From positions 1 through 42,208 of IMG/VR virus record IMGVR_UViG_3300047560_001490: a stretch of DNA of 42,208 nucleotides. The stretch is one strand, 5' to 3'. This DNA comes from a virus. The notes below the pieces were generated by a model. It ran no database searches. It was given only the letters and a program-made list of their open reading frames with translations, and was not told where the DNA came from. The position numbers and the translations under genes were made by a program. This document shows, one piece after another, positions 12,245 through 39,262 of the stretch (positions are counted from its first letter, which is position 1; each line of letters opens with the position of its first letter).

Positions 12245-15200
12245 TTAGTCACGTGCTCCTGGGTGTTCTAACAAGAATTTAACTTGCGGACTATTATTGT
12301 ATTGTAACCCCATTGGTGACGGTTCCCAATTATATCCACCAGGTATTAACATATTAGTTCCAGAATCTTGTACTATAACATTTGAGAAATGGCATATTGA
12401 AGTTGTTGATCCAATCACCTCAACAAACTTAATATTTTTATAGCCAACAGGGGGGATACTATTAGAATCAAAAATAATATAAACACCTGCGTCGATGTTT
12501 AGAATTAAACTAACATCACCTTCTATACTTGTTAAGAAGCAATTTGTCTTAACTCCTGGTAAAGGAGCTATTTTAATTGTTATTATTGTTATAGTTTCGT
12601 AATTGTTAATTAAACGTATAGAATTATTAGACATAAAGTAATAATCAATTCCAAGTGTTAACGGTTCTGAATTTGGGTATGTATCATAAACTGTTAACTG
12701 GGTTGTAGATTGTAATGCATCAACTAATCCAATTTGTACATCCATCCCTTCTACAGCATAATAATACATTTTACCTTGTGCTTGAAATTTGTTATTAACA
12801 TATACTGTTATTCCGTTTGGCGAGTATCCGGACATTGTAGCATATCTATCTGTAGTACCGTTTCCGTCAAAATATTCAATATTAAACGTTGTTTCAATAC
12901 CAGTACTGGTTCCGCCAGCACCTCGTACAATGTTAGTTAAGAATGCTCTATTCGGATGATCTCTTGTCGGTGCAGGTTGTACTTCTAAAAAGTCTATTTT
13001 TTCATTATCAATCCAAACAGACCCGGGAACTGTTAATGTTGGTTGGGTCAATTTAGTATAATCTTCTACTTCGATACTGCTAGAGTTTATCAGGACCTCG
13101 CTTAATAGTCTTGTTCTTGCTTTAAAATCTATAGCATAACTCTGTCTATATAACGACGAATCAATAAACTGTCTGATCGCAATACCGGGACGTTCTGGTG
13201 CTCCTCTCATATATCTAATAGTAATATTATCAGCTGGATCATGTGGTTGATTGAAGAGTATTACATATCTATAAGGACCAGAATCAAATGGTTGTGCATC
13301 ATACCCAAATATATCAAACCCTTCAATTGTTCGTCTTGCAATCGCATAATCCCAAAGCATACGCTGTAGTTGATTATTTTTAAAGACTGTTATAGTACTT
13401 TCTGAAGTTGGGTTGTCTTCGAGGATATATTCTCCATTAGGATTTCCATCAAATTCTTGTAGAACAAATCTATAACTTAAATCTTGAGTAAAACTAAGAA
13501 CATTAATTCTAGCACCTATATCAACATTATTCATAAAGATTTCTTTACCAATGATAGAATAAAACTGGCCCTGAGTAGGATCCATATTTACTATTGTAAG
13601 TGTTGCGCCCTCATTTAGTGTAAAATATAACGTAACGGTTCCATCGAATACATCGTAGCCAGGTGGTCCAATATGAGCACCGTCGATATAAACTTTAAGG
13701 TATGTTTCCGGGTCAGTAGGAACATCTGGGAAGTCGAACTGACGGGTATATCCGTCGCCGATATAAGTTTTCATTGGCGGCGGTGATAGTGGAAGACCAT
13801 CTGCTGTTACAACCACAGTTGAATAGTCAGGTACTGTATTACCTACAGGTCTTTCCATAATATAAGAAAACCCTGTATATGTAAATTCTTCATTTAAGAT
13901 TTTACTAAATTGCGGTGTATTGAATACAGTTACAACTACATACGATCCTAACGGAGGAGTTGCAATACTAACGCTAGTAGATGAATAACCTAATACAGTT
14001 GCAAATACACCATTTACAGTTACCATAAAATTGAAGAAACTTGTCCCACTTTTTCTTAAAGTAAATGTACCGGTCTTCCCAGTTGCAACAAAGGTTTCTT
14101 GATTTATTATACTTGTATAATAAGCGTTAAACGTTGCACCAGTACCGCCGGAAGTAGAACTTGCATATTGTACAAATGGTACCGTTGGTTTAACTGTATA
14201 TAACCCAGGACGGTCAATTTTAGCTGTATTAACACCCCAAACAGGAGACATGTTAAGTCCAGACCCATTGCTGTTAGATGATTTCCAAGTTGCAACATCC
14301 GGTATTGTTTTATATGATCCTGCATTGTATATCTCAACTGAAACAATCGAACCTTTGATTGTAACATTAGTAGTTTTTACTAGTAATGGGGTTTGAACTT
14401 CCCCCGGTTGAGCCAGATCCCAAACAAGTTGTAAAATTTCCCCTGTTTTATATCCAGTTCCGCCATTAGCTATGTGTATATTTCCAGCAGTTACAGTTTC
14501 TACTTGAACCCTTGCTCTATATTTTCCGCCAGCATCGTTGAACTGTGTAGGTTCGCCGCCTTCTAATGTTATGAAATCTCCGGGTTTATAATTTTCTCCT
14601 CTTGAAACTGGATAAACAGCAGAAATAGTTGATCCCGATCCGCCGTCGCCATAAGCAATAATTGTAAGTCTTTTACCTGGGTCGGGTGGGTAAACAAATA
14701 CTAATTCACCAGTTTCAAAGTTAACTACAAAATCTTTGGTTGGACCATATCTTAATAATACTCCATCTAAATACGCTTCGACTCCGCTATCATTTTGCGG
14801 ACGAACACCCATACTATAATGATCTTTAATACCTTCAGTTATATAAGATGTTTGCCATACAATTGGCATACCGCCTACATAATTAGAATAAGTATCAATC
14901 CTTACAGCATCTCTAATTCTATTAGTAAGTAACTCTTCTGCATGATCTGCCTCTACAGTTGGATTGATAAAGTCACTTCCGTCTGTAATGATATCATATT
15001 CGCCTGCAGGTGCAGGTTCGAATGTAGTACCTGCATACAAAACCCAAATATTTGGTTTATCGCTACTGGTTGGAGGTGTTGTAAACTTTAGAGTAGAACC
15101 GCCCCATATCATTCCAACTTTGGCATTTTTTCCAGATCCAACATAATAGGAGTCTATATATTCTATACTATATGCCCCGTCTTGAATTACTTCAAAACTA

Positions 15201-18200
15201 CCGGCATTTAACATGATAACATTTTTAATGCCGCCATTTGAATCAACACCTGTTACTACAAATTCTGTTGGTACAACAATTCCGCCCGGAGCATTTCCTA
15301 CAACTTTTAATTTTTCGCCCGGGCTATATCCTTTACCTCGTTCGATTATCTTTATCGATGTAGCATAAGTTGGTATAGTATAATCTTCTCCATAAACAGC
15401 TAATGATTTGTCTTTCCAAATCTTAGTATCAACTAAGTTTTGTGGAACTCTTGATAATCTAAATAAAGTTCTATGCCCGTTACCATAAAATTGATCATAT
15501 ATCGGAGGCAAGCCGCCTTCTAACATTACTTCTTGTGCATCATTTACTGCTGCATCATCGGGAGAGAATCCTGCAGGCATGTCCCAACCTGCCTCAAATG
15601 GTCCTCCTGAATAAATTATTCCCTTGTAGTCAGTTCCGCTAATTAAGTCTGGGCTGAATGCAGGCGGCATATATTGTGTTGGTGCATAATCTCTCATAAT
15701 TCTATCAGCAGCACCAAATGTTTGATGATAGATAGCACCACCGTATCCAGTACCAATACCGACAGTTCTATTATACTTTCCGAATATTATATCTCCGGAA
15801 ATTGCTGTAATTGTAACATCATTTGATGCAAACGACTGTACCATTGTAGATCTTGCAATAACATTACCAACAGTTACAGTTTCTCCTGCAATAAAGATAT
15901 TTGTAATATTTTCTGCCGTTGTAAATATAACCACGTCACCGCGGCTTTCGACATTAACAACAGATACAAAACTATTATATTGATGGAATATGTTACCGCT
16001 TATACCGTTAGCTATACCAATGTTACTAGTGTAATCTACAGTAACAAGGTTACCAGATGTCTCAAGCACTATTGCATTTGACGTTGTGAATGATGTAAAC
16101 GGAGTTGTATTCGAAACTAGTGTAACATTACCAATAGTTACTTTTTCACCTACTCTAAAGGTATTCTGTTCGTTATTTAAATCTACTGAGAATACAACGG
16201 TATTACCCGAACTCTTTGCATTAGTAATTGATAATGATTTACTGTACTGATGATAAATTTCACCCTTTGTTCCAAAATTAGTATCAAGGTTACGATTATA
16301 CTTAGTAACTATAACATTGTCACTTGCACTTGCAACAACAGCATCAGATGTATTAAAAATTGTGACCTGGTTTGTTAAAGATTGTACGTTTGTTACATAA
16401 ATCTTTTCGCCTACTCTAAATGTACTTACTAATTTACTAGGTTTTATAGTAAATGAAACTGTTGACCCGTTTGCAGATGCGTTAACAACGGTTGCAACTT
16501 GAGGCATACTTGCAACTCTATCAAATACCAATTGCGTTTTTAATCTGCGAATAAGATTAGGATTGGTTTTATAGTTATTAAACCATGGGCTGTAAGTTGA
16601 ACTGCTGATCATTATGTTTTGATCAGTTATATTAAGTTCACTTAATACTCTGTAAGAATTGTCTTCAGTTTCTAGATAAACAGGTTTATCAAAGTCAGTT
16701 GATCCTTTAACACTTACATTGTCAACAGCAGTTCTACTACTTACGAATTCTCTTATTTTAGTTCTATAAGGTTTTGCTTCGTTTAAATAATCTAAAAGCA
16801 GATCAACTGTATTTGGTTTATATAGTTCCGAAGTTGACAATGGTTCCATTGACCCGTTAATAGATATGAAACTAGTCTTGAATACCCAATCAACATAATT
16901 GTGTTCATTGAACACAAAATTAACCATTGCAAAGAAAAGTTCGTTTAATTCAGTTGATCCCGAGCCGTTATATATACCCTTAACAACCCCGTCGAATATT
17001 AAACCTATTTCCATAGTTGGGTTGTAATCAAACGGAACTTTAGTATCAAACCCTATTAAATCAAATCCTGATTGATTTTGAGTTGTGTTCCATAAATTTT
17101 CTGTAATTTGGATAGTACCGTCTTGTAATCCAACTAATATTGATCCAGTGGTTTCTAGACCAAGAAATAATGCCCATCTGCCGTCAAAGTCACGAACTTT
17201 AACTACTACACCAGCTGTAATTATTGCGTCTTTTTCTTTAACCGTATCAACTGTATATGTCGGTATGGTATTTGAATCATATCCGTTACTATACCAATCA
17301 ACATATTTCCAATAGTTATTAACATTGTATGCTTGTTTTCTATAAAGAACAAAGTCATTACTTGCTGCATCCCATTGCCAAATAGTCCACATATTATTAT
17401 TAACGGCTGTTGGCATTACAAAAACTCGTTCGCCGTCAATCGCACTTTGTTTTATAATTGACATTTCACTCATGTCATTTATTTTGTATTCATAATTACC
17501 ATAAGCACTTGGTATTGGTTCGCTTTGTGTAAAGTACAAACTCCAAGTAGATTTAGAACTATCTAATACAAGAGGATCTGATGCGTCAGCTAGTTGAGTA
17601 TTAACTCTGTTAGCCCAAATACTAAGAGCTTCTAATCTATCTGCAAACCAAGACTGTCTTGGACGAATTAAATTTCCATATTTTAGTAATTCGTTTAGTT
17701 GAGGATCTGGTACTTGGTTACCCATTGCATCAAATCCTGTTAAGCTATCTCTTAGTTTGTTCCAATATTCTTGATCTATGTAACTATTAGGATCGTCTTT
17801 TCTAATAAGTGTCCATTCTTTATAATCATTTGCATCATTTGGTTTAGTTGTATAATTAACCTGCATAACGATATCTGTATCAGTTAAGAACTCTCCAATA
17901 TTTGCTACAATTAATGTGCGTTCGCTAACTGCGGCAAACCAAGGAATAGCATTACTTCCTGGATTTTTAATAATTCTTGCAATTTCATTAGTAGAAAGAT
18001 TTCTATTTTCTGCAAGCGGCGGCATATCGCTGCGACCTACCCAGAAATAATACCATGTACGTGCTATACCATTTGAATCATATTCTACTTTTTGTGTCCA
18101 GGCTGGATTTGATGAGTTTCTAACAAAGCCAGATGCAATATACGGAATACCATACTTGGATAGATTTACACCTGTTATTGTATAATTTGTCCAGTCTGCC

Positions 18201-21200
18201 GGTGGGATAGAACTTTTAACCCATTCATATATTTCTATATCTGTACCAGGTGCAAGTTTAGCCCAATTTTTAACTCTATAATCTATAGGTCCTGTTTCAT
18301 AATCAACAAATCTTGTTGTACCGAGGTCCCACCATACTTCACCAACATGCGGTTCGCTCCAGCACTCAGCCTCATTCAAACTGTAAACACTTGTATCCCC
18401 GCTGTTATATTGTGCGGGATCATAAACAGTTTTATAGGTGATTTCTTTATCGGCAATTCCGGGTATCATACCCTTGCCTGGATCATAATATTCTAAAACC
18501 GTAGCATCGGCAAATGTTAATTTGTTATATAATCTACTTGATAAAATTAAATTTGCATCAACCTTAGGCTCGGCATTTCTATAAATTTCCCAAGTACCTA
18601 TGTTCCATCTATAAACAGTCCATTCACCTTCTGCTTCGCCGTTTGTTACATAAACAAGGTCGCCTTGGTGCCAACCTCCTAATAGATCATAAGAAAGTAA
18701 CTCATTCTTATCAAAGAATTTTTTACTTTTAAGAACTCTTACAACACCTTCAAAATCTTCAATAAAGGTACTAATCGGAATACTAATAGTTACATCTGTA
18801 ACAGCTTCAACTATAAATGTTGAATTAAGGCTATTATTATTTTTAAAACCTGTTATTACAATCAAGTCGTCAACCATTATTCCGTGGTTATCGTTGAAAA
18901 TAATTTCTGTAATATTTTCGCTTCCATGAGGAAGTGTGCGACTTACAGTGCTTGCAGGACTAACAACTTTATACACATCCCAAGATGCATTAACTGTTGT
19001 GAATTGCCAAATAGTATCACCTGTTGTTAAAGTCTTACCATTTACCGCAAGGTTTGCATTCAAGTTATAAAGTTCAGTTTGATTGATAACTGTATATGTT
19101 GTTTCACCTAAGTGAACAAATCCACTAGTTGGCAAATCGCCATATAAAGAATTATCTACATTTGCTCTTAGTGGGAATAGTTTACCTTCGTAATTTTCCG
19201 GAGGAACTACGATTCCAGGATCTCTAACAGCAATTTCAATTATGCCATCTCTCGGTTGAGTACTATCATAGTTACTAAACACATCAATACGTTGCGGATT
19301 ATTAACATATTCTACTTGTGGTATAATAAAATCTATATTTGTATTAAGTGCAACAGCACCATATCTAGCTTTTCTAAATGCATATTCTTCGTAGTAGTTT
19401 ACAGTTTGACCAGTTGGTAAAATACTAGTGTTACGGAGTATACCATCAAGAGATTTACGAGAACCTTTTTGTCTTATGAAGCCTTGGAAGAATTCAAATT
19501 GAGTTGTATCATCTAATAGTAGATTTTCTAAATATTCTCTCTTTTGATAGCTAATAGTATGCTTGGCTAATTGTGATAAATCAGTTCTTGTAACCGCATG
19601 ATTTATAGAGGAATTTTCTGTTAATTTACCAGTATTATTATCTATCTTCACTATATTTTTAGGTTGATCTATGTTATAGAGATTTTTGAAATCGGCACTA
19701 GTCTTTTCAAAATTCTCAATCATCTTCCATTGATTTGTTATAGGATCTTGATATAAGAAATACCCAGGTGCATCAAGTCTACCTGACCAATTGTTAGTTC
19801 TATAGCCGTAAACTTTAAGACGCGGTTGATATACATTTAAAAGTGGATCATATATTAAATCATTAAACTGTGTTACGTTACTAACCAACATAACATGTTC
19901 AACGGTAGTAACATATACTCTTAATCCAAAGATAGTTTGCCCATTAGTAGAATTAATAGTAAGTTCGTCATTAAATCTTAAAATTTCTAAATTCTGCGCT
20001 TCTATTGGTTGACCTGATTTATCTAGAACTGGGTATGTCCCACCACTAGTTCCATTAACACATTGTACAGTGCCAAATTCCTTTTTAAACTTAATTAAAT
20101 CTGCACCCGGACTTAATGCAATAAAGTTTCCGTTTGTCCAATTACCTTGACTCCAGTAAACGAAATCTCTAGCACTTTGTCGCCAGTTAACAACTTTGCC
20201 ACTTTCGTCGTTAACGATTTCAAATTTCCACCCTTCGCTTTCTAACCAGCGACCATAGCTTACAATAAAATCATAAACATCTTGTCTATTATCAAAAATA
20301 GTTCCATATGGAACAGTATTCAATCCTGCGCCGTTTTTGTAATCTACAACAGTAGTATTACCTATTACGTTACTCGACTTGGGCCCAGTTACAATACTTG
20401 GGATAACAGTAAATGACGGGTTGATTCCGTCATATCCATATACAGCATAACCATTGCTTTGTTTAACAATGATAACACCACTATAAAAATAGGTACCTAA
20501 ACTTGTTGAACGATATAGATATGTTTGTACATTTTCAGATGGCACTAATTGACTAGTATATCCTAACTGACCAAAGCTGTCGGCCATTACTCTTAAACTA
20601 TTATCAGTGCCTACAAATCCGCCAAATTTATGAGCTAGACTGCTATATGAGCCTCTTATCACATAACCGATATTTTTTGTAACACTTAGATTCTGATTGA
20701 TCAAGTATTCGCTTATCCAGTGTTGAATTCCCCAACTACCAAAGAAACTTAGGGTTGACTCGTTTGGAATTGAATTTGTTATTTTCAAACTTGTTGGTAC
20801 TTCTCTATGAATATAAAATTCAGAATTACCTCTTCTATTATTTGTATTTTTATAAAGCCATTGCTGAGAATCACCCTCGCCTACTTGTTCAGTACGTAGC
20901 GGATCCCAAGTTTGTTCGATAAATCTTGCAGGCTTCATTAGATAACTTGTTAATGCTGTAACAAATCCGTGTTCTAAACTATTGATCCAAACATCTTCAA
21001 CTGGTCCACCGTCTCCAAATTTCCATTCTGCTTGTGCATTGTTTAATGTAGGGAGAATGGCAATTACTCCTGCTAGATTAGGAGGTAAGATCAAACCCTG
21101 ATCGTCAACAGGTATACAATCCATTAACCCAGGTCTAGCCCAGGCTGAATGCACCCCGGCTCTAATTCCATTGCGTATTAATCCTGCTGTTAGATCCTCC

Positions 21201-24200
21201 CAAAGAGTTGTATTACCTCTTGTATAGGGTGCAGGACCATACTCGCTTTCCCACCAAACGGGTTTTTGACTAAATCCAAGCATCTCCCATGGGTGAGTAT
21301 GCGGACGATCTGTATCATAGAACCATCTGTAAATAGCTTTCCAATTTCCTGGTATTGGTTCGTTATCTTTATCTGTACATGAGTTGTAGTTCCAAGAAAA
21401 CTCGTTGTTCTCTTGAAAAGTTGCATTAGCAGAATAATCAAGTTGTGAAGTAATGATCCACTTATCAAAACTTGGTCTTAGAATATTTAAGTATTCTTCT
21501 CTACTATAATTCTCTCCTACACTGTCAGCAAAGTTTAATTGGTTTCTCCATTTACCTGGTTTATAAATTCGTTGATCAAATGCAGGAGCGGAATCAATGT
21601 CTTTATATTCTGCCGGGATTGCATTGTATAAGTTAATTTCTAATTGTAACCATGCTGCGGCAACAGGATGTGATAAATGATTTGGATTAGATGTCTTATC
21701 TTTATTACTTGAAATTGTGCCTAACTGTTCACCATGCAGGTCTTCTAATATTATATTCGCACCATCGTGTGTCTGCAAAGTTAATTTAGGAGGGTAATAA
21801 TCGCTATCTAAATAAACCTCTGGTGCAAAAACTGGAGTTATACCTAGTTTTGCAGCAGTTGGAGGAATGAATGTAGGATTTTGTGTTGATGTAAAATCCT
21901 CAGTTTGTTCATACCCACTGTATGCCCATGCACTTGTTTTACTCTTACCTAAATTGATTTGTTGTAGAGCTGTATCAATCCATCCTTGCGGTGTTACGTT
22001 TTTATCAAAGCCTTGTGCATTATATAAATTAAACAACGCTCTGGTAAATCTACTATAGAATCTTGTATATTCTCTTTGTGCCCATTGTATTGCAAGGCTT
22101 ACGTCTGTTAAACTTGTATTACCTAGTGCACCGGTATTGATATTCGAACTATTCAACATCATTAATTTAAGCATAGGTGATCTGTGCTGAAGAATGTGTA
22201 CACCAAGACCTAATACTTTTGCACTATCACGCCATCCTGTTGCGCCGGCACCGTTAGTAGTTTCTTTATATTGATTAGAAATTAGACTACCAAAATGTTT
22301 AATGGTTTGATCAAATGTTAACGTATTAATTTCTTCATTATTTGGATTAGCAACAAGGTTAACTGGTTGTAGATAATAACCGTTTGATGCAACAGGTGTG
22401 TCTTTACTCCAACTATAAATCTCAATTCTTGCAGCAGTTGATTCGTCTACTGCGGTTGTTAACGTTACAGTTCTGCCATAGACGGTATAATCAACTCCAT
22501 TAACCAGAAGTTTCGAACTATGATTATGAATTTGATAAACCATTATGTTGGGTAAAAATCCTAGAACGTCTTCCGCTGGAGACTGATCTATTAGAAACGT
22601 CGCCGTTGATTCAGTTATATCAAAAGAATTTAAAATATATTGACGGGAACCGCCTCTACATTTGTGCCAACCATTACTTATATTACCATTACTATACCAT
22701 AGATACCCTGTTATATCTACTTCCTGATTATTTTCTATATAAGTGTAACTACTTGTAACAAGAGAGTTATCAAATATAAAATCACCAAACTGATCTCGTT
22801 TAGCTTTGATTTGCAAGTAAGTATCTACTACATAATTACTGTCAGTTTTATAGGTAAAAATTGTATTACCTGAGAAGTTGCTACCAGGATAAACAGCAGG
22901 ATCTATTAAGTTGTTTCCGTATCTATCATATCCAGCAAACAGTGCAGGAACATACTTTTGACGTGTTTGAGCAGCTACCCAAGTAGTACCATTAAACCAC
23001 CAAGTCTTTTTACCGTTGTTTGTACCAAACATTGCATATGTACAATCACCGTATGTAGGTGCACCGGTTGAATTCTGTCCTTTGGTTACTAATGTTAGTG
23101 TTACAACACCGTACTCCTCAATTCCGCCTACCTGATAAACTCTATTATTAACTGAGGAATCTTTATCTGCTGTAAAAAGAATAGTCATTCCATCTATAAG
23201 ATTTACACCGTCAATAATTATATTACTACCATACAACACAACATCGCGGCCGCCTATATTAACAGTCCTTCCGTTAACTGTTGTATTACCTACTGAAACT
23301 TGTCCGATTTGCATACCAGCAATTGTCCCAAATACATCAGTGGTTGTTGTATCAACTATATCAATATCAGGCAGTCCATATGTACCGTGATTAAACAGGT
23401 GCATGTTAGAATCAAATTCTATAATTGGACGTTTAGCTTTGACATCTTCTTTGTCGAAAAGATTAAGACCTGATGTTAATAACACATCCTTATGAAACCA
23501 ACGATTATTAACACTCCATCTATTGTAATTCTGTGCAATACGCCCGAGAGTCATATAATCAGGGATATTGTTGATGTCGTCTCCGTCCCAGCCTCTAACA
23601 TCCCATCGTGGAACATCCCATCCAGGTGCAGGTGACATATAATCAGGTTCGATTTTAATACCTGTTCCGACACCTTCGACAATGAAAATAATACCTTCTA
23701 AGCTATGATCAGCATCATTAGAAACTTGTATTCTCATTCCGCTCGATAATTTTAATTCACCTGTAATAGTTTGATTGTCTGTAACTCTGTAATAGGACCC
23801 AACATATGTGTACTCAGTTTTACCTATAGCATCATTGCGTAAATCAGTATAATTTAATAGCTGAATGTTACCGGGTCCTTGCGGTAACCAATAATACTCA
23901 TAAAAGTTAATAAACTTATCAGGGTCAATCGGCGGTAACCAACTATAGTATTCTGTTTCTAGTAATCTGCTATGACTCTTTATATTTGATCCTTGGAATG
24001 CAAGAAGATTTATAGTATCGTCATAGAACATGATATTCGTAACTGCTGAACTAGTAGGGTCTGTGCTTACAGCCGTTACTGGTAGCTGATAATTTGTTCT
24101 ATTCTGAGTCTTTTCTGTTATATAAAAATCTTTATTTTTATCGTAGTAAGCAGGCTTACTACCTACGTATCCACTTATGAATTCTACATTCTCTGGTTGC

Positions 24201-24370
24201 AACATATGATCTATTGTTGCATTGAAGAACTTTTCTAATGTATCAGTTTGATAAACAGCTGGTAACAAGTGTATAGCAGAACGTTTGCTGTTAACTGTGT
24301 CAGTTTGAGCAAATATGTTAGATGCCATAGGTTTAATAGGTTGAGGTCCATTACTTGTTAAATTAGCCAT
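12245..24370 (-). CDS. Giant virion structural protein of the baseplate region (4041 aa)
   Basis: One uninterrupted frame of 4041 codons directly after gp6, overlapping it by 8 bases. In T4 the genes after gp6 are 7, 8, 9 and 10, so this protein probably does part of the work of the baseplate wedge/periphery; that is inference from position. The N-terminal 150 residues (SAIHLLPAVYQTDTLEKFFNA around residue 31) resemble the large structural protein next to gp6 in cyanophages, by memory. Most of the chain is Asn/Thr/Tyr/Gly-rich beta structure with aromatic patches. Residues about 2620-2885 are three tandem repeats (each ending in YHQY, FHQY or YHQT). Around residues 3010-3310 there are GYSPGE, NYKPGD and GYKTGE motifs. 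No enzyme motif or membrane segment was recognised. Confidence 0.85.
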   Translation of the reverse strand: MANLTSNGPQPIKPMASNIFAQTDTVNSKRSAIHLLPAVYQTDTLEKFFNATIDHMLQPENVEFISGYVGSKPAYYDKNKDFYITEKTQNRTNYQLPVTAVSTDPTSSAVTNIMFYDDTINLLAFQGSNIKSHSRLLETEYYSWLPPIDPDKFINFYEYYWLPQGPGNIQLLNYTDLRNDAIGKTEYTYVGSYYRVTDNQTITGELKLSSGMRIQVSNDADHSLEGIIFIVEGVGTGIKIEPDYMSPAPGWDVPRWDVRGWDGDDINNIPDYMTLGRIAQNYNRWSVNNRWFHKDVLLTSGLNLFDKEDVKAKRPIIEFDSNMHLFNHGTYGLPDIDIVDTTTTDVFGTIAGMQIGQVSVGNTTVNGRTVNIGGRDVVLYGSNIIIDGVNLIDGMTILFTADKDSSVNNRVYQVGGIEEYGVVTLTLVTKGQNSTGAPTYGDCTYAMFGTNNGKKTWWFNGTTWVAAQTRQKYVPALFAGYDRYGNNLIDPAVYPGSNFSGNTIFTYKTDSNYVVDTYLQIKAKRDQFGDFIFDNSLVTSSYTYIENNQEVDITGYLWYSNGNISNGWHKCRGGSRQYILNSFDITESTATFLIDQSPAEDVLGFLPNIMVYQIHNHSSKLLVNGVDYTVYGRTVTLTTAVDESTAARIEIYSWSKDTPVASNGYYLQPVNLVANPNNEEINTLTFDQTIKHFGSLISNQYKETTNGAGATGWRDSAKVLGLGVHILQHRSPMLKLMMLNSSNINTGALGNTSLTDVSLAIQWAQREYTRFYSRFTRALFNLYNAQGFDKNVTPQGWIDTALQQINLGKSKTSAWAYSGYEQTEDFTSTQNPTFIPPTAAKLGITPVFAPEVYLDSDYYPPKLTLQTHDGANIILEDLHGEQLGTISSNKDKTSNPNHLSHPVAAAWLQLEINLYNAIPAEYKDIDSAPAFDQRIYKPGKWRNQLNFADSVGENYSREEYLNILRPSFDKWIITSQLDYSANATFQENNEFSWNYNSCTDKDNEPIPGNWKAIYRWFYDTDRPHTHPWEMLGFSQKPVWWESEYGPAPYTRGNTTLWEDLTAGLIRNGIRAGVHSAWARPGLMDCIPVDDQGLILPPNLAGVIAILPTLNNAQAEWKFGDGGPVEDVWINSLEHGFVTALTSYLMKPARFIEQTWDPLRTEQVGEGDSQQWLYKNTNNRRGNSEFYIHREVPTSLKITNSIPNESTLSFFGSWGIQHWISEYLINQNLSVTKNIGYVIRGSYSSLAHKFGGFVGTDNSLRVMADSFGQLGYTSQLVPSENVQTYLYRSTSLGTYFYSGVIIVKQSNGYAVYGYDGINPSFTVIPSIVTGPKSSNVIGNTTVVDYKNGAGLNTVPYGTIFDNRQDVYDFIVSYGRWLESEGWKFEIVNDESGKVVNWRQSARDFVYWSQGNWTNGNFIALSPGADLIKFKKEFGTVQCVNGTSGGTYPVLDKSGQPIEAQNLEILRFNDELTINSTNGQTIFGLRVYVTTVEHVMLVSNVTQFNDLIYDPLLNVYQPRLKVYGYRTNNWSGRLDAPGYFLYQDPITNQWKMIENFEKTSADFKNLYNIDQPKNIVKIDNNTGKLTENSSINHAVTRTDLSQLAKHTISYQKREYLENLLLDDTTQFEFFQGFIRQKGSRKSLDGILRNTSILPTGQTVNYYEEYAFRKARYGAVALNTNIDFIIPQVEYVNNPQRIDVFSNYDSTQPRDGIIEIAVRDPGIVVPPENYEGKLFPLRANVDNSLYGDLPTSGFVHLGETTYTVINQTELYNLNANLAVNGKTLTTGDTIWQFTTVNASWDVYKVVSPASTVSRTLPHGSENITEIIFNDNHGIMVDDLIVITGFKNNNSLNSTFIVEAVTDVTISIPISTFIEDFEGVVRVLKSKKFFDKNELLSYDLLGGWHQGDLVYVTNGEAEGEWTVYRWNIGTWEIYRNAEPKVDANLILSSRLYNKLTFADATVLEYYDPGKGMIPGIADKEITYKTVYDPAQYNSGDTSVYSLNEAECWSEPHVGEVWWDLGTTRFVDYETGPIDYRVKNWAKLAPGTDIEIYEWVKSSIPPADWTNYTITGVNLSKYGIPYIASGFVRNSSNPAWTQKVEYDSNGIARTWYYFWVGRSDMPPLAENRNLSTNEIARIIKNPGSNAIPWFAAVSERTLIVANIGEFLTDTDIVMQVNYTTKPNDANDYKEWTLIRKDDPNSYIDQEYWNKLRDSLTGFDAMGNQVPDPQLNELLKYGNLIRPRQSWFADRLEALSIWANRVNTQLADASDPLVLDSSKSTWSLYFTQSEPIPSAYGNYEYKINDMSEMSIIKQSAIDGERVFVMPTAVNNNMWTIWQWDAASNDFVLYRKQAYNVNNYWKYVDWYSNGYDSNTIPTYTVDTVKEKDAIITAGVVVKVRDFDGRWALFLGLETTGSILVGLQDGTIQITENLWNTTQNQSGFDLIGFDTKVPFDYNPTMEIGLIFDGVVKGIYNGSGSTELNELFFAMVNFVFNEHNYVDWVFKTSFISINGSMEPLSTSELYKPNTVDLLLDYLNEAKPYRTKIREFVSSRTAVDNVSVKGSTDFDKPVYLETEDNSYRVLSELNITDQNIMISSSTYSPWFNNYKTNPNLIRRLKTQLVFDRVASMPQVATVVNASANGSTVSFTIKPSKLVSTFRVGEKIYVTNVQSLTNQVTIFNTSDAVVASASDNVIVTKYNRNLDTNFGTKGEIYHQYSKSLSITNAKSSGNTVVFSVDLNNEQNTFRVGEKVTIGNVTLVSNTTPFTSFTTSNAIVLETSGNLVTVDYTSNIGIANGISGNIFHQYNSFVSVVNVESRGDVVIFTTAENITNIFIAGETVTVGNVIARSTMVQSFASNDVTITAISGDIIFGKYNRTVGIGTGYGGAIYHQTFGAADRIMRDYAPTQYMPPAFSPDLISGTDYKGIIYSGGPFEAGWDMPAGFSPDDAAVNDAQEVMLEGGLPPIYDQFYGNGHRTLFRLSRVPQNLVDTKIWKDKSLAVYGEDYTIPTYATSIKIIERGKGYSPGEKLKVVGNAPGGIVVPTEFVVTGVDSNGGIKNVIMLNAGSFEVIQDGAYSIEYIDSYYVGSGKNAKVGMIWGGSTLKFTTPPTSSDKPNIWVLYAGTTFEPAPAGEYDIITDGSDFINPTVEADHAEELLTNRIRDAVRIDTYSNYVGGMPIVWQTSYITEGIKDHYSMGVRPQNDSGVEAYLDGVLLRYGPTKDFVVNFETGELVFVYPPDPGKRLTIIAYGDGGSGSTISAVYPVSRGENYKPGDFITLEGGEPTQFNDAGGKYRARVQVETVTAGNIHIANGGTGYKTGEILQLVWDLAQPGEVQTPLLVKTTNVTIKGSIVSVEIYNAGSYKTIPDVATWKSSNSNGSGLNMSPVWGVNTAKIDRPGLYTVKPTVPFVQYASSTSGGTGATFNAYYTSIINQETFVATGKTGTFTLRKSGTSFFNFMVTVNGVFATVLGYSSTSVSIATPPLGSYVVVTVFNTPQFSKILNEEFTYTGFSYIMERPVGNTVPDYSTVVVTADGLPLSPPPMKTYIGDGYTRQFDFPDVPTDPETYLKVYIDGAHIGPPGYDVFDGTVTLYFTLNEGATLTIVNMDPTQGQFYSIIGKEIFMNNVDIGARINVLSFTQDLSYRFVLQEFDGNPNGEYILEDNPTSESTITVFKNNQLQRMLWDYAIARRTIEGFDIFGYDAQPFDSGPYRYVILFNQPHDPADNITIRYMRGAPERPGIAIRQFIDSSLYRQSYAIDFKARTRLLSEVLINSSSIEVEDYTKLTQPTLTVPGSVWIDNEKIDFLEVQPAPTRDHPNRAFLTNIVRGAGGTSTGIETTFNIEYFDGNGTTDRYATMSGYSPNGITVYVNNKFQAQGKMYYYAVEGMDVQIGLVDALQSTTQLTVYDTYPNSEPLTLGIDYYFMSNNSIRLINNYETITIITIKIAPLPGVKTNCFLTSIEGDVSLILNIDAGVYIIFDSNSIPPVGYKNIKFVEVIGSTTSICHFSNVIVQDSGTNMLIPGGYNWEPSPMGLQYNNSPQVKFLLEHPGARD
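15716..16500 (-). repeat. Three tandem protein-coding repeats inside the giant structural gene
   Basis: Within codons about 2620-2885 of the 4041-residue protein, a unit of roughly 85-90 residues occurs three times. Each copy has a segment like SGNTVVFSV, then FRVGEKV or FIAGETV, then a V(T/G)NV segment, and finishes with a Gly-rich turn and YHQY, FHQY or YHQT. The copies are diverged at the protein level, so this is an old duplication, not a recent DNA repeat. Limits are approximate. Confidence 0.7.
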
Positions 24371-33871: not shown

Positions 33872-33913
33872 TTCAGTCATTTGCTTCTGTTTTGTTTTTA
33901 ATTAAGGAATATG

Positions 33914-34885
33914 ATGAGTAATGCACCAACGACTAAAATAAAATATCTTACAAACAAGGATTTATTAGAAGAGATACATCGCAGTAAAAAGACTTATTGT
34001 GAATTTATTGCAGAAGAATTTGGTAATTATGATTTTATAGTTACCGACCTGGCAATTGCAACTCCTGAACGTATTCAACAGGCTAGAGAGAAAAGATACA
34101 GCGATACTTTTAGCAAGATGAAAAAGGAAGCAGTATCTAGAGGAGTTAAGAATCCTCAAATACAATTAGATATAGAAACAATTACCCCCGAAAGTATTGT
34201 TATTAGACTAATGACATTTGATCATATTCCAATTAATGAAGAAAAACTACACAAAGCAAAAACAGAAGCAGAACGCCATATTAAATGTAACTTTCCGCCC
34301 TTTCAACATTACATATATAAAGACAACGAATTTATATGTGTAGGTAAGAGTCACTGGGTTGGCGGATTAGAAAACGGTCACTTTAGTAATACACATGGTA
34401 CAATTACAAATAGACTAGCACTTATGTTTATGAAGTTGGTAGAAAGATATAGTCACAGAGGCAATTGGCGAGGTTATACATATAACGACGAGATGCGTAG
34501 CCAAGCATTACTACAGTTAAGTCAAATGGGCTTACAATTTGATGAAAGCAAGAGTGATACACCAAATCCGTTCGCATACTTTACAGCCGCAGTTAACAAC
34601 TCCTTTACAAGAATCCTAAATTTAGAAAAACGTTCCCAAAATATTAGAGATGATTTGCTTATTATGCACGGTGCTATGCCAAGTTATACTAGGCAGACTG
34701 AGCAGGATATAGCCAAGACTGGCGGTGCCGCTGCACCTGCAAGAGGTAGATTTGGTAGAGCTATTAAAAAGGTCGTTCCTGTTGTCGAAGCCGTAGCTGC
34801 TGAGCCAGCTGTTGTTGAAGTAGAAACTACTAAAACAAAAGTTACTAAAACAAAAACTGCTACTAAATCAAAAGCCAAAAAGTAG
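33914..34885 (+). CDS. 55: Late transcription sigma factor gp55, with insertion and basic tail
   Basis: Homologue of T4 gp55, the sigma factor that lets host RNA polymerase recognise TATAAATA-type late promoters. Matching segments are the N-terminal TNKDLLEEIHRSKK (T4: NNKELLQAI) and, at about residues 190-245, GYTYNDEMRSQALLQLSQMG, NPFAYFTAAVNNSFTRIL and a following KR-rich piece. Between them lies an extra segment of roughly 110 residues (from about 45 to 160) with no counterpart in the 185-residue T4 protein. The C-terminus ends in a Lys/Thr-rich tail (KTKVTKTKTATKSKAKK), and the hydrophobic clamp-binding end of T4 gp55 (SLDFLYE) is not visible. An ATG at 33911 is only two bases from the Shine-Dalgarno AAGGA, so I start at 33914. 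Confidence 0.85.
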   Translation: MSNAPTTKIKYLTNKDLLEEIHRSKKTYCEFIAEEFGNYDFIVTDLAIATPERIQQAREKRYSDTFSKMKKEAVSRGVKNPQIQLDIETITPESIVIRLMTFDHIPINEEKLHKAKTEAERHIKCNFPPFQHYIYKDNEFICVGKSHWVGGLENGHFSNTHGTITNRLALMFMKLVERYSHRGNWRGYTYNDEMRSQALLQLSQMGLQFDESKSDTPNPFAYFTAAVNNSFTRILNLEKRSQNIRDDLLIMHGAMPSYTRQTEQDIAKTGGAAAPARGRFGRAIKKVVPVVEAVAAEPAVVEVETTKTKVTKTKTATKSKAKK

Positions 34886-34947: not shown

Positions 34948-35979
34948 ATGGCTCAAAAGAAACCAGACTTTAGTAAATGTGTTGCATTCACTGACATTCA
35001 CCTTGGTCTTAAAAATAATAGCCGTGAGCATAATGCTCTGTGCGAATCATTTATTGATTGGATGGCAGAAGAAGCACAAAAGTTCGGTGCTAAAACCTGT
35101 ATATTCTTAGGTGATTGGCACCATATCCGTTCTGCTATTAATATTTCTACATTAAACTACAGTGTTAGTTGTTTACGTAAGCTCAACAATTATTTTGATG
35201 ACACTATATTCATTATTGGTAACCACGACTTGTTCTATCGTGACAAGTATGAAATTCATAGTATTCCTTACATTAATGAATTTCCAAACATTCATCCTAT
35301 TGATAAACTAACAACCATAGGCGATGTTTGTTTTGCCCCTTGGTTAGTTGAGGATGAATGGAAGAAGGTGCAAAAGATCAAAGCACCATATATGTTTGGA
35401 CATTTTGAATTACCAAAGTTTAAAATGAACGCAATGGTTGAAATGCCAGATCACGGACTTCTAAACCGTGAACACTTCGTTCATCAGAAACAAGTATTTT
35501 CTGGACACTTCCACAAGCGTCAGAGTTTTGAAGATCGTATTTGGTATATTGGTAACTGTTTCCCGCACAACTATTCCGATGCTTGGGATGATGAGCGCGG
35601 CATTATGTTATGGGAACCTGGAAAAGAACCAGCGTTTAAGACATTTCCAGATGCTCCAAAATATAGAACGCTGACTTTAAGTCAGGTATTAACAGATCCA
35701 CTGACGTTTATCGATAGCAAAACGTATGCCAAAATCAACATTGACATTGATATAAATTATGAGGAGATTAACTTCCTCAAAGAAACTTTTGAAAACGATA
35801 TCGGTGCCAAAGAAGTGGCAATGCAGGTGGCAAAAATATCTGATATTGACGTTGACTCTGGTGCTGCTATAAACTTTGAGAGTGTTGATACAATTGTGAT
35901 TAGTCATTTGAAAAGTATTGAAAGTAACACTATCGATACTCAAAAATTAATTTCAATTTATCAGTCACTGACTATATAG
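34948..35979 (+). CDS. 47: gp47, Mre11-like recombination exonuclease subunit
   Basis: Catalytic subunit of the gp46/gp47 complex that resects DNA ends for recombination-dependent replication and host DNA breakdown. The 343-residue protein (T4 gp47: 339) has the metallophosphoesterase motifs in order: Asp16 and His18 (TDIHLG), Asp56 (LGDWHH), Asn92-His93 (IGNHD), His152 (GHFELP), and His187/His189 (GHFHKR). All metal ligands are present, so it should be active. It begins after AAAGGATATAACC, 62 bases downstream of gp55. In T4 its partner gene 46 follows almost at once; here pmoC and a cluster of tiny ORFs lie between them. Confidence 0.95.
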   Translation: MAQKKPDFSKCVAFTDIHLGLKNNSREHNALCESFIDWMAEEAQKFGAKTCIFLGDWHHIRSAINISTLNYSVSCLRKLNNYFDDTIFIIGNHDLFYRDKYEIHSIPYINEFPNIHPIDKLTTIGDVCFAPWLVEDEWKKVQKIKAPYMFGHFELPKFKMNAMVEMPDHGLLNREHFVHQKQVFSGHFHKRQSFEDRIWYIGNCFPHNYSDAWDDERGIMLWEPGKEPAFKTFPDAPKYRTLTLSQVLTDPLTFIDSKTYAKINIDIDINYEEINFLKETFENDIGAKEVAMQVAKISDIDVDSGAAINFESVDTIVISHLKSIESNTIDTQKLISIYQSLTI

Positions 35980-36030: not shown

Positions 36031-36038
36031 TATAAATA
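36031..36038 (+). promoter_or_regulatory. Putative late promoter TATAAATA for pmoC
   Basis: Exact T4 late consensus in the 170-base gap between gp47 and pmoC, about 112 bases upstream of the pmoC ATG. The octamer is followed by TTT, as is the copy at 37075. The leader contains a small inverted repeat (TTAAC/GTTAA, about 36048-36063). Because the phage encodes gp55, pmoC is probably a late gene. Confidence 0.65.
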
Positions 36039-36149: not shown

Positions 36150-36923
36150 ATGAGTTCAACAAGTAAGGCGGTTTCCGGCGCAGTTTCCGGTACAGATGCA
36201 AGTGTTGTCGATCTACGTGGTATGTGGATCGGTCTTGGACTATTAAATGTTTTCTATCTAATTGTACGTATCTATGAACAGGTCTTTGGTTGGCGTGCCG
36301 GCCTAGATTCGTTCGCACCCGAGTTCCAGACATATTGGATGTCAATCCTATGGACGGAAATCCCACTAGAACTAGTATCAGGTATGGCCCTCGCTGGTTA
36401 TCTTTGGAAGACCCGCGATCGGGACCTAGCAAATCTTGCTCCTCGTGAGGAAGTACGTCGTATCGTTGTTCTCGTTCAGTGGCTTGTAGTTTATGCTGCT
36501 GCAATTTATTGGGGCGCATCATTCTTCACTGAACAGGACGGTACATGGCACATGACAGTTATTCGTGATACAGACTTTACTCCAAGTCACATCATTGAGT
36601 TCTACATGAGCTATCCAATCTACAGCGTTATTGCTGTTGGTGCTTTCTTCTATGCTCGTACACGTATCCCTTACTTTGCTCAGGGTTACTCACTAGCATT
36701 TTTGATCGTTGCTATTGGACCATTTATGATCATTCCAAACGTTGGTCTAAATGAATGGGGTCACACATTCTGGTTCATGGAAGAGCTCTTTGTTGCTCCG
36801 CTACATTGGGGCTTTGTGTTCTTTGGTTGGATGGCACTAGGTGTATTTGGTGTTGTTCTACAGATTCTAGGACGTATCCACGCCCTAGTCGGTAAGGAAG
36901 GCGTTGCTCTTCTTACTGAATAA
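36150..36923 (+). CDS. pmoC: Particulate methane monooxygenase subunit C (PmoC), alphaproteobacterial type
   Basis: PmoC is a membrane subunit of the copper enzyme that oxidises methane to methanol in the host's intracytoplasmic membranes. The 257-residue protein has the family length and several membrane helices (about 25-43, 104-124, 150-168, 180-197, 220-240). Metal-site residues known from Methylococcus structures are conserved: Asp130, His134 and His147 (DGTWH...PSH), and Asn201, His205 and His219 (NEWGH...LHW). LRGMWIGL, GLDSFAPEFQTYWM and NEWGHTFWFMEELF read like Methylocystis/Methylosinus PmoC, not AmoC. AGGAG lies 7 bases before the ATG. No pmoA or pmoB is present, so the product must join host PmoA and PmoB. 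Single-line hand counts give about 48-50% GC, versus about 32% in a gp46 line. Confidence 0.97.
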   Translation: MSSTSKAVSGAVSGTDASVVDLRGMWIGLGLLNVFYLIVRIYEQVFGWRAGLDSFAPEFQTYWMSILWTEIPLELVSGMALAGYLWKTRDRDLANLAPREEVRRIVVLVQWLVVYAAAIYWGASFFTEQDGTWHMTVIRDTDFTPSHIIEFYMSYPIYSVIAVGAFFYARTRIPYFAQGYSLAFLIVAIGPFMIIPNVGLNEWGHTFWFMEELFVAPLHWGFVFFGWMALGVFGVVLQILGRIHALVGKEGVALLTE

Positions 36924-36956: not shown

Positions 36957-36984
36957 AAACCGCTCACCTTAAGTGGGCGGTTTT
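36957..36984 (+). terminator. Rho-independent terminator after pmoC
   Basis: Stem AAACCGCTCAC (36957-36967) with GTGGGCGGTTT (36973-36983), one G-T wobble, a 5-base loop and a T tract (TTTTC). It lies 33 bases after the pmoC stop and so closes pmoC as its own transcript. Confidence 0.9.
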
Positions 36985-37074: not shown

Positions 37075-37082
37075 TATAAATA
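37075..37082 (+). promoter_or_regulatory. Putative late promoter TATAAATA for the tiny-ORF cluster
   Basis: Exact T4 late consensus, followed by TTTTT, 23 bases before the ATG at 37106. It shares the 11-mer TATAAATATTT with the copy upstream of pmoC. A transcript from here would run through four tiny ORFs to the terminator at 37394. Confidence 0.65.
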
Positions 37083-37105
37083 TTTTTACAAAAGGGAGAC
37101 GCAAA

Positions 37106-37213
37106 ATGTTTAACAAGGTCGCAATATTTTCAGTAACAATGTTTATGATTTTTGCTGTATCAGCATATGCACAAAGTTCATTTGCTCAGGCATTTTGCGG
37201 TAACTGTTTCTAA
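37106..37213 (+). CDS. Tiny exported-peptide candidate, 35 aa, ends FAQAFCGNCF
   Basis: A short ORF with a strong Shine-Dalgarno (GGGAG at 37094-37098, 7-base spacing) and a late-type promoter 23 bases upstream. The peptide begins MFNKVAIFSVTMFM, a short basic start followed by a hydrophobic stretch, then AVSAYAQ, the AxA pattern of a signal peptidase I site. Cleavage there leaves a 13-residue peptide ending FAQAFCGNCF; cleavage at AQA would leave only FCGNCF. Export is inference. The two Cys in FCGNC could form a disulfide or bind a metal. It is followed directly by a second peptide of the same design. I know of no matching family. It could be non-functional, but its signals are unusually clean. 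Confidence 0.6.
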   Translation: MFNKVAIFSVTMFMIFAVSAYAQSSFAQAFCGNCF

Positions 37214-37224
37214 GGAGAGATGTA

Positions 37225-37323
37225 ATGAGATATACTCTTACTATAATGTCTTTTCTAGCTCTTTTCTCTATGGCAGGCATTCTGATTACACTGCCTGCTC
37301 ATGCTCATGCTTTTTACTGTTAA
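37225..37323 (+). CDS. Tiny exported-peptide candidate, 32 aa, ends AHAHAFYC
   Basis: Second ORF of the cluster, starting 11 bases after the previous stop with Shine-Dalgarno TAAGGAG (GGAG at 37214-37217, 7-base spacing) overlapping that stop codon. The peptide starts MRYTLTIMSFLALF, has a long hydrophobic core, and ends LPAHAHAFYC. Two signal peptidase-like AxA sites (AHA, AHA) precede a remnant HAFYC or FYC. It shares the A-x-A-F-[C/Y] end with the neighbouring peptide, so the two may be a related pair. His and Cys near the end could bind copper; that is speculation. No known family is recognised. Confidence 0.6.
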   Translation: MRYTLTIMSFLALFSMAGILITLPAHAHAFYC

Positions 37324-37334
37324 GGAGTACGTTA

Positions 37335-37361
37335 ATGGACGAACAACTATGGGGATTTTAA
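37335..37361 (+). CDS. Octapeptide ORF MDEQLWGF
   Basis: An eight-codon ORF with Shine-Dalgarno TAAGGAG (GGAG at 37324-37327, 7-base spacing), which again overlaps the stop of the ORF before it. Its product MDEQLWGF shares an acidic start and a W-x-G-F or W-G-F end with the next ORF. It might be a signalling peptide, a leader peptide or a chance ORF; the repeated Shine-Dalgarno spacing is the main support. Too short for any family comparison. Confidence 0.4.
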   Translation: MDEQLWGF

Positions 37362-37362
37362 A

Positions 37363-37386
37363 ATGAACGAATGGGATGGATTTTAA
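37363..37386 (+). CDS. Heptapeptide ORF MNEWDGF
   Basis: Seven codons starting one base after the previous stop (37359-37361), with GGGGA at 37351-37355 at the same 7-base spacing. The product MNEWDGF resembles MDEQLWGF in its acidic start and aromatic-Gly-Phe end. Its stop is 8 bases before the cluster's terminator hairpin, so it is the last element of the transcript. Confidence 0.35.
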   Translation: MNEWDGF

Positions 37387-37393
37387 AAACAAC

Positions 37394-37418
37394 AAAGCCG
37401 CTATATGCGGCTTTTATT
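37394..37418 (+). terminator. Rho-independent terminator closing the tiny-ORF cluster
   Basis: Stem AAAGCCGC (37394-37401) with GCGGCTTT (37407-37414), 5-base loop TATAT, followed by TATTTT. It lies just after the heptapeptide ORF, making 37075-37418 a self-contained unit with its own promoter and terminator. Confidence 0.9.
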
Positions 37419-37433
37419 TTGACTGCTATCTTG

Positions 37434-37483: not shown

Positions 37484-39262
37484 ATGCTCGCAATAAAATC
37501 CGTTACAATGAAAAACTTTATGAGTGTTGGTGCTGTTACACAATCTGTCGACTTAACTAAAAACGGCGTAACACTTGTATTTGGTGAAAACTTAGATCTA
37601 GGCGGCAATGGTTCTCGTAACGGCGTAGGCAAGAGTACAATCCTACAGGCTATTAGTTATGGACTATTTGGTGTTCCATTAACCAACATTAAAAAAGATA
37701 ATCTTGTAAACAAGATCAATCAAAAGAATATGAGTGTTAGCATTGAATTTGAAAACAATGGACACAAGTATCGCATTGAACGTGGCCGTAAGCCGCAATT
37801 CTTTCGTTACATTGTAGACGATGAGAATGTTAATAGTCAGGATACTGACGAAGCACAGGGCGAAAGCAAAGATACACAACACGAAATTGATCGTATATTA
37901 GGTATGAGTCATACAATGTTTAAGTACATTGTAGGATTGAATACATACACAGAACCATTTCTATCACTAGGTGTTAGTAAGCAACGAGAACTTATTGAAG
38001 AACTACTATGTATCACACAGTTAAGTCAAAAGGCTGAGAAGCTAAAAGAACTTATTAAGACTACTAAAAACGAAATTGAAAAAGAAGAACTGCGACTTCG
38101 TACAGTTAAACTTTCTAATGAACGTATTCAAAATACTATAGAAGATGTTAATCGCAAGGCTGATCAGTGGATTACGGATCATCAACAAGAATTAGAAACA
38201 CTAGATATGGCTATTGCTAATCTAGCTAATCTTGATATTGAAAATGAATTAGAGCAACATAAACAAGTTGAAACTAAAAAAGAACTTGAACAAGTGATTA
38301 ACCAGTTAAAGAGGGATATATCATTAAAGACTCGTCATGCCACTCAACTTGAAACACAGTTAAATGGATTGGTTGCACAGTATAGCACAGTTCTAAACAA
38401 AGAATGTCCAATGTGCGGACAAGGTCTACATGATCACGCCCACGATTCAATCGTAGAAGATCTCGAAGGTAAAATTGCTAACCTAGATGGACAAATTTCT
38501 AGCGAACGCCAAGAGATTGCAAACTTACAAGCAGAAGTTGATACCATTTCTCCTGTATTAGAAGCTATGGGTAAACCAGAAACATTCTATCCAACTCTAC
38601 GTGAGGCACTAGCACATAAGTCTACAATTGATCAACTTATCAAAGACTTAGATAAAGAGAAAACTAGAGAAAATCCTTATGCAGAACAAGCAGTTAGCTT
38701 ACAAGAAACTATGCAACCTATTGATTACGATATACTGAACACAAGCGTAAAAAATAGAGAGCATCAAGAGTTTTTATTGAAGTTACTCACTAGCAAGGAT
38801 AGTTTCATCCGTAAGAAGGTTATCGATCAAAACCTTGCATATCTTAACAGCAGACTAAGCGAGTATATTGATAAACTTGGATTACCGCATCTTGTTAAGT
38901 TTATGAATGATCTAACAACTGAAATTACTATTCTTGGACAGGATCTAGACTTTGATAATCTTAGCCGCGGAGAACGTACAAGATTGATTCTTGGGTTAAG
39001 CTGGGCGTTTAGAGATATCTTTGAGAACACTAATCATGCCGTTAACTTGATATTTGTCGATGAGCTGCTAGATAGTGGACTCGACAGTGCTGGTCTTGAA
39101 GGATCTGTTGATCTTCTTAAGAAGATGGATCGTGAACGCAACAAGAATGTATTTGTTATTAGTCACAGAGAAGAGTTGATTAACCGTGTAACCAATATCC
39201 TAACAGTAATTAAGGAAAACGGATTTACTAACTTCTCATATGATTATGAAACAGTGACGTAA
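37484..39262 (+). CDS. 46: gp46, Rad50-like recombination ATPase subunit
   Basis: ATPase partner of gp47 in the recombination nuclease. The 592-residue protein has the SMC/Rad50 layout: N-terminal strand MKNFMSVG, Walker A GNGSRNGVGKST (Lys50), a long coiled coil interrupted by a zinc hook CPMC near residue 308, the ABC signature LSRGER (about 493-498), and Walker B LIFVDE (Asp526, Glu527), followed by FVISHREE. The frame is open further upstream to 37376, but that would run through the terminator and tiny ORF; the ATG at 37484 (MLAIKSV) aligns with T4 gp46 and has an extended -10 promoter ahead. The zinc hook is kept. It ends convergently with the nuclease gene, overlapping by 19 bases. Confidence 0.95.
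   Translation: MLAIKSVTMKNFMSVGAVTQSVDLTKNGVTLVFGENLDLGGNGSRNGVGKSTILQAISYGLFGVPLTNIKKDNLVNKINQKNMSVSIEFENNGHKYRIERGRKPQFFRYIVDDENVNSQDTDEAQGESKDTQHEIDRILGMSHTMFKYIVGLNTYTEPFLSLGVSKQRELIEELLCITQLSQKAEKLKELIKTTKNEIEKEELRLRTVKLSNERIQNTIEDVNRKADQWITDHQQELETLDMAIANLANLDIENELEQHKQVETKKELEQVINQLKRDISLKTRHATQLETQLNGLVAQYSTVLNKECPMCGQGLHDHAHDSIVEDLEGKIANLDGQISSERQEIANLQAEVDTISPVLEAMGKPETFYPTLREALAHKSTIDQLIKDLDKEKTRENPYAEQAVSLQETMQPIDYDILNTSVKNREHQEFLLKLLTSKDSFIRKKVIDQNLAYLNSRLSEYIDKLGLPHLVKFMNDLTTEITILGQDLDFDNLSRGERTRLILGLSWAFRDIFENTNHAVNLIFVDELLDSGLDSAGLEGSVDLLKKMDRERNKNVFVISHREELINRVTNILTVIKENGFTNFSYDYETVT

Follow-up and report, generated by a model that had tools for sequence, protein, structure and literature searches.

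pMMO is a copper enzyme, and methanotrophs use Cys-containing peptides for copper. In the step that follows pMMO, methanol dehydrogenase employs PQQ as its cofactor. Genes for the PmoC subunit have been found in large freshwater methanotroph phages, and in Lake Rotsee phage pmoC was transcribed together with structural genes; an operon of micropeptides adjacent to pmoC is not described in the accessible sections of that report (PMC7674155). No viral pmoA or pmoB has been reported to accompany pmoC in phages (PMC10904782). The PqqA peptide was reported earlier from viruses of methylotrophs in Lake Baikal and, in the accessible text, is not placed together with pmoC (PMC7678222). The crystal structure of pMMO from Methylocystis sp. 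Rockwell contains an unidentified helix for which no sequence was given (4PHZ, PMC8098663), archaeal AMO has the extra subunits AmoX, AmoY, and AmoZ (PMC10030591), and the substrates of MNIO enzymes include Sec-exported copper peptides, the bufferins and oxazolins (PMC12452194).

The locus described here shares with the freshwater phages a pmoC gene with virion-like late expression, which is predicted in the present case. It differs in carrying, behind pmoC, a separate and predicted late unit of four very small ORFs. On the evidence of its sequence this cluster is a real, non-random ORFan micro-operon in the pmoC cargo site, probably expressed late, and it is a single occurrence.

Genomic Context

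The window, by which we mean the whole 42,208-nt stretch analysed (IMG/VR record IMGVR_UViG_3300047560_001490), is a 42-kb virus contig of a T4-like phage that includes the baseplate genes gp25 and, probably, gp53 (see Table 1 for features). An unusually long single ORF of 4041 aa lies amid the virion-type genes (window 12245-24370, minus strand). The pmoC gene is of the Methylocystis type and keeps the Cu_C and Cu_D copper-ligand patterns: D-x3-H-x12-H at residue 130 and N-x3-H-x13-H at residue 201. The phage PmoC has its nearest counterpart in Methylocystis (84-95%), which makes Methylocystis the probable host.

Table 1. Features of the micropeptide cluster and its surroundings (positions in the window).
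Feature	Position	Strand	Basis
AATAAATA late promoter site	6591	minus	25-38 nt before virion-type gene
GATAAATA late promoter sites	33813, 28161, 11469	minus	25-38 nt before virion-type genes
gp55-like late-transcription sigma factor	33911-34885	+	phrog_12791, E 7e-82
gp47-like (SbcD) gene, upstream flank of insertion	34948-35979	+	PHROGs match, comparison with relatives
TATAAATA, late promoter upstream of pmoC	36031-36038	+	promoter-motif survey
Phage pmoC (AmoC/PmoC subunit)	36150-36923	+	PF04896, E 7.8e-108; best PDB match 3rfr (PmoC)
Terminator after pmoC, dividing pmoC from the cluster	36957-36983	+	sequence
TATAAATA, T4-type late promoter serving the four ORFs	37075-37082	+	direct reading; ORF1 ATG 31 nt downstream
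ORF1 Shine-Dalgarno GGGAG, 7-nt spacer	37094-37098	+	direct reading
ORF1, 35 codons, MFNKVAIFSVTMFMIFAVSAYAQSSFAQAFCGNCF, signal-peptide-like, tail QSSFAQAFCGNCF (CxxC)	37106-37213	+	ORF list, signal-peptide rule
ORF2 Shine-Dalgarno GGAG, touching ORF1 stop	37214-37217	+	direct reading
ORF2, 32 codons, MRYTLTIMSFLALFSMAGILITLPAHAHAFYC, signal-peptide- or membrane-anchor-like, tail HAHAFYC	37225-37323	+	ORF list, signal-peptide rule
ORF3 Shine-Dalgarno GGAG, touching ORF2 stop	37324-37327	+	direct reading
ORF3, 8 codons, MDEQLWGF	37335-37361	+	direct reading
GGGGA, weak ORF4 Shine-Dalgarno, within ORF3	37351-37355	+	direct reading
ORF4, 7 codons, MNEWDGF	37363-37386	+	direct reading
Terminator of the micropeptide cluster, stem of 8 pairs, then T-rich run	37394-37414	+	homologous to terminator directly after pmoC of L039
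gp46-like (SbcC) gene, downstream flank of insertion	37484-39262	+	start set by homology

Together, pmoC and the cluster fill the interval between gp47 and gp46. In most of the relatives that were fetched these two genes adjoin (gap of about 0-24 bp), and a few have 77-890 bp between them; in close relatives the whole interval is absent rather than frameshifted. An ATG at 37376 (MDFKNN...) was rejected as the start of gp46, since homologues begin at the position of 37484 and the terminator lies in between. Two related contigs, L039 and L040, carry pmoC at the same site. In L039, the closest relative with pmoC there, a terminator follows pmoC directly and the cluster is missing. Starting at 37394, the window aligns with the terminator and gp46 leader of L039 at a score of 68 (shuffles reached 39 at most). 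For the cluster, L039 has no counterpart: the score was 28, and shuffles averaged 29. This comparison makes the cluster an additional module, either acquired by this phage or lost from L039.

Architecture and Late Transcription

Base-by-base re-reading of the cluster (37106-37386) showed four ORFs arranged head to tail, each with its ATG preceded by a Shine-Dalgarno sequence at exactly 7 nt. The starts of ORF2 and ORF3 have the form TAAGGAG-N7-ATG, in which the Shine-Dalgarno sequence abuts the preceding stop. The GGGGA of ORF4 consists of the Trp-Gly codons of ORF3, and ORF3 and ORF4 meet in a stop-start junction (TAA-A-ATG); for these two reasons it is the least convincing of the four ribosome-binding sites, and translation of ORF4 more likely depends on coupling to ORF3 than on its own site. 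The layout of promoter, four spaced ORFs, and terminator had been proposed in an earlier sequence-only reading, and it holds, with the ORF4 site as its weak member. The promoter of that reading can now be specified as T4-type and late. Its description of the cluster as self-contained is apt for the promoter, ribosome-binding sites, and terminator, which support a self-contained transcription unit with convincing translation signals, but the cluster belongs to a larger cargo insertion with pmoC. Since pmoC has a terminator of its own, the cluster is a separate unit whose link to pmoC is positional.

Each of the six NATAAATA sites in the window lies ahead of a gene. Four stand before virion-type genes, at 25-38 nt, and the remaining two lie 119 nt before pmoC and 31 nt before ORF1; the chance of five of six sites falling 20-45 nt before genes is about 1e-10. 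Since every such site precedes a virion-type gene, pmoC, or the cluster, late expression of the cluster during infection is very probable. A TATAAATA-type promoter shortly before the first gene and a phage-encoded gp55 are two marks of a T4-type late transcription unit, and both are present. The exact TATAAATA form occurs in the window only before pmoC and before the cluster, and it stands no more than 170 bp ahead of the gene in 31 of the 45 distinct phage pmoC loci surveyed. These late promoters match the co-transcription of pmoC with structural genes described in the accessible part of PMC7674155. In L039 (5790-5838), a GATAAATA late promoter upstream of pmoC is followed by a strong Shine-Dalgarno sequence (AAAGGAGG) and a two-codon ORF, ATG-AAT-TGA.

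The sequence-only reading had also judged four well-placed ribosome-binding sites hard to explain by chance, and the counts bear this out. When the 311-nt stretch was shuffled 5000 times with its dinucleotides preserved, 596 shuffles contained one Shine-Dalgarno-ATG-stop ORF, eight contained two, and none contained a chain of three or four. The cluster was the sole chain of at least three such ORFs in 3.57 Mb comprising the window and related phage loci (both strands). Signal-peptide features were scored by a simple, home-made rule (a positively charged n-region, then a hydrophobic core and an A-x-A region for cleavage), and two ORFs satisfying it in one stretch were obtained in 3 of 20,000 mononucleotide shuffles. 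Across the same 3.57 Mb, 86 of 12,729 ATG ORFs of 25-60 codons satisfied the rule, and eight combined it with a Shine-Dalgarno sequence; among the six distinct sequences listed for these eight are ORF1, ORF2, and the exported peptide that follows pmoC in L008 and L010. With counts this low, neither the translation signals nor the signal-peptide character of the cluster is likely to be accidental.

The Four Peptides

ORF1 and ORF2 both begin with a charged segment, followed by a hydrophobic core, Ala-rich A-x-A regions, and a short Cys-containing tail, QSSFAQAFCGNCF in ORF1 and HAFYC or longer in ORF2. Both satisfied the signal-peptide rule, in support of the earlier suggestion that they are exported, and they seem to be envelope-targeted, as either exported or membrane-inserted peptides. 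The hydrophobic stretch of ORF2, about 19 residues, has the length of a helix. ORF1 and ORF2 are poor candidates for full duplicates (140 of 2000 shuffles aligned as well), whereas their tails together with the following Shine-Dalgarno sequence are alike to a degree equalled in 1 of 2000 shuffles, in a comparison chosen after the fact. ORF3 and ORF4 share the pattern M(D/N)E..W.GF, with an alignment score equalled in 14 of 2000 shuffles, and ORF4 is a probable partial duplicate of ORF3. To call these two short aromatic peptides, as had been done, is fair as a description; as products, their case comes down to the Shine-Dalgarno sequences and the start-stop packing. A metal-binding or membrane-acting function of the peptides is possible.

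Homologues of ORF1-4 were found neither by pattern searches of IMG/VR nor in INPHARED, 39 Methylocystis-genus genomes, Pfam, NCBIfam, PHROGs, or PDB, all of these searches being weak for sequences so short. Selection on the four frames is consequently unproven. A host origin of the peptides was rejected, since the 39 Methylocystis-genus genomes contained no copy. Five matches to a CGNCF pattern in 199 family genomes were judged to be chance, a single weak match to ORF2 (L268) overlaps a transporter gene, and three IMG/VR matches to the ORF3-ORF4 junction pattern all represent one unrelated locus. At the DNA level, the interval gave only short matches to other phages (27-48 nt), the best of them in the terminator region.

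The described peptide families resemble ORF1 and ORF2 in part. Bufferins, oxazolins, and methanobactin likewise come from small Cys-containing precursors. Those of the first two carry Sec signal peptides as well; methanobactin precursors, in contrast to the signal-peptide-like ORF1 and ORF2, do not. Genes for MNIO enzymes (PF05114) are present in 33 of the 39 Methylocystis-genus genomes, but none was found in the 42-kb record, which is possibly a fragment. The EGKCG or 4/6-Cys core patterns are absent, the ORF1 tail having only CGNC and ORF2 one Cys, and neither Pfam nor NCBIfam gave a match. Given the absence of both an MNIO gene and the core patterns, membership in the MNIO-substrate families is not claimed. 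ORF1 and ORF2 were also rejected, by reading, as methanobactin or lipoproteins, as neither leader nor lipobox fits. At a Methylocystis-genus MNIO locus (L272:825-1001), a 58-aa exported peptide ending in RCNANGCPTK lies just before a bufferin-like precursor and is possibly a small companion peptide. The arbitrium peptide AimP is exported as a pre-peptide whose mature part is a very short C-terminal piece, and ORF1 and ORF2 may be analogous to it in both respects; here, however, the phage is a T4-like lytic one, and expression would be late rather than early.

Micropeptides Behind Other Phage pmoC Genes

Two further kinds of micropeptide gene sit just 3' of pmoC in other phages, so that such genes recur at this position, although the three kinds are unrelated. 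One family comprises exported His/Asp peptides of 43-46 aa directly 3' of pmoC (L001:6789-6920, L008:6826-6954, L010:3085-3222), which share a conserved C-terminal VVYEG[AS]GG[RK] and look cotranscribed with pmoC. An alignment-based scan of IMG/VR confirmed relatives of this family only on contigs already carrying pmoC. The family is unrelated to ORF1 or ORF2, both of which lack the VVYEG[AS]GG[RK] C-terminus, so that only the position is analogous. The other kind is a PqqA precursor shortly 3' of pmoC (L055:4312-4380, L056:8841-8909, L063:2726-2797, L065:6853-6924), with the L055 and L063 copies matching PF08042/TIGR02107. Phage PqqA resembles the present case in being a peptide gene, of fewer than 30 codons, that phages of methylotrophs transport as metabolic cargo, but PqqA is cytoplasmic and modified by host enzymes, whereas ORF1 and ORF2 have signal-peptide features and gave no match to PF08042/TIGR02107 in the Pfam and NCBIfam searches. 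The 0-450 nt 3' of pmoC amount to about 1% of the surveyed DNA, yet hold most of the small, Shine-Dalgarno-bearing exported ORFs found; the independent cases are few, the search was prompted by the window, and no formal significance is claimed for this enrichment.

Possible Functions

We tentatively propose, at clearly less than even confidence, that the cluster is a late, envelope-targeted cargo operon tied to the phage PmoC, in support of pMMO or its copper. This proposal draws on the non-random architecture, with a late promoter of the type and spacing used for virion-type genes and a late sigma factor nearby; on the insertion together with pmoC at a gp47/gp46 junction that is otherwise mostly closed; on the signal-peptide features of ORF1 and ORF2 and the CxxC and His/Cys residues of their tails; and on the recurrence of micropeptides 3' of phage pmoC. 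Counting against it are the lack of ORF1-4 homologues, the terminator that sets pmoC apart from the cluster, the presence of pmoC at the same site in L039 without the cluster, and the fact that the exported His/Asp peptides form one family unrelated to ORF1 or ORF2. ORF1 and ORF2 would be made in quantity late in infection and enter the Sec pathway, where cleavage would release into the periplasm very short Cys peptides, approximately QSSFAQAFCGNCF and HAFYC; alternatively, they might stay as single-helix membrane peptides. The peptides would then act with the phage PmoC, most simply in copper handling for, or stabilisation of, a remodelled membrane pMMO. ORF3 and ORF4 would be translated by read-on coupling, as minor products or mainly to carry ribosomes to the terminator. 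A role of copper is suggested by the nature of pMMO as a copper enzyme, the Cys and His of the tails, the Cys peptides of methanotrophs, and the MNIO enzymes of the probable host genus; that the tails bind copper is a guess from three Cys and two His.

ORF1 and ORF2 might instead be small inner-membrane peptides of late infection, acting in lysis, lysis timing, or superinfection exclusion and sharing only a site with PmoC. This alternative, which we consider less likely, would account for the late promoter, the single hydrophobic segments with short tails, the isolation of the unit from pmoC by a separate terminator, and the habit of T4-like phages of keeping many small late or membrane ORFans; however, no lysis or immunity family was matched in Pfam, NCBIfam, or PHROGs, the Ala-x-Ala-rich c-regions resemble cleavable signal peptides more than stable anchors, and a Cys at or near the end of the tail would be needless for such roles. 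It is unlikely that uncleaved ORF1 or ORF2 forms an accessory pMMO helix that packs against PmoC and replaces a host small subunit, as no PDB chain matched in sequence and the peptides were not found in the 39 Methylocystis-genus genomes, even though the cluster adjoins pmoC, the hydrophobic stretch of ORF2 is of helix length, and precedents exist (PMC8098663, PMC10030591).

Regulation without functional peptides was also considered. The tiny ORFs, ORF3 and ORF4 especially, could form a leader or attenuator, translated just to control transcription or RNA stability. Very short ORFs do lie right before the terminator, 37338-37420 resembles the Rfam Phe leader below threshold (23.9 bits where 55 are required, E 0.32), and 37330-37425 folds strongly (z -3.4), although this is largely the terminator itself. 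Yet the folding of the mRNA as a whole is unremarkable (z -0.33), a competing anti-terminator was not observed, the terminator persists in relatives that lack the leader, and two signal peptides would be left unexplained, which makes this reading quite improbable. A structured RNA in place of the ORFs was rejected on the same sub-threshold Rfam match and mRNA folding. Even less probable, and in our view very much so, is that the ORFs arose by chance, in a late transcript that is never translated or in a gene undergoing decay: no homologue was found and ORFs of 7-8 codons arise easily, but the shuffles, the 3.57 Mb of related DNA, and the small-ORF counts given above speak otherwise, the stop-Shine-Dalgarno packing is exact, and in the ORF listing no longer broken frame with its own Shine-Dalgarno sequence crosses the cluster.

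Implications

The cargo operon proposed for this phage could be one instance of something wider, in which methanotroph phages carry, beside pmoC, late operons for exported micropeptides that contain Cys or His. These would serve the pMMO of the envelope, either by supplying or chelating copper, perhaps once host MNIO enzymes have modified them, or as small pMMO subunits. This generalisation is decidedly speculative. If true, it would define a new class of auxiliary metabolic micro-genes overlooked by gene callers, and micro-genes of fewer than 50 codons beside auxiliary metabolic genes merit systematic annotation. Such micropeptides could help to explain how one extra PmoC benefits an infected methanotroph. 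If late micropeptides accompany PmoC in the envelope, they would point to a limiting step, be it the loading of pMMO with copper, its assembly, or its stability, and would offer a small, testable handle on the viral alteration of methane oxidation.
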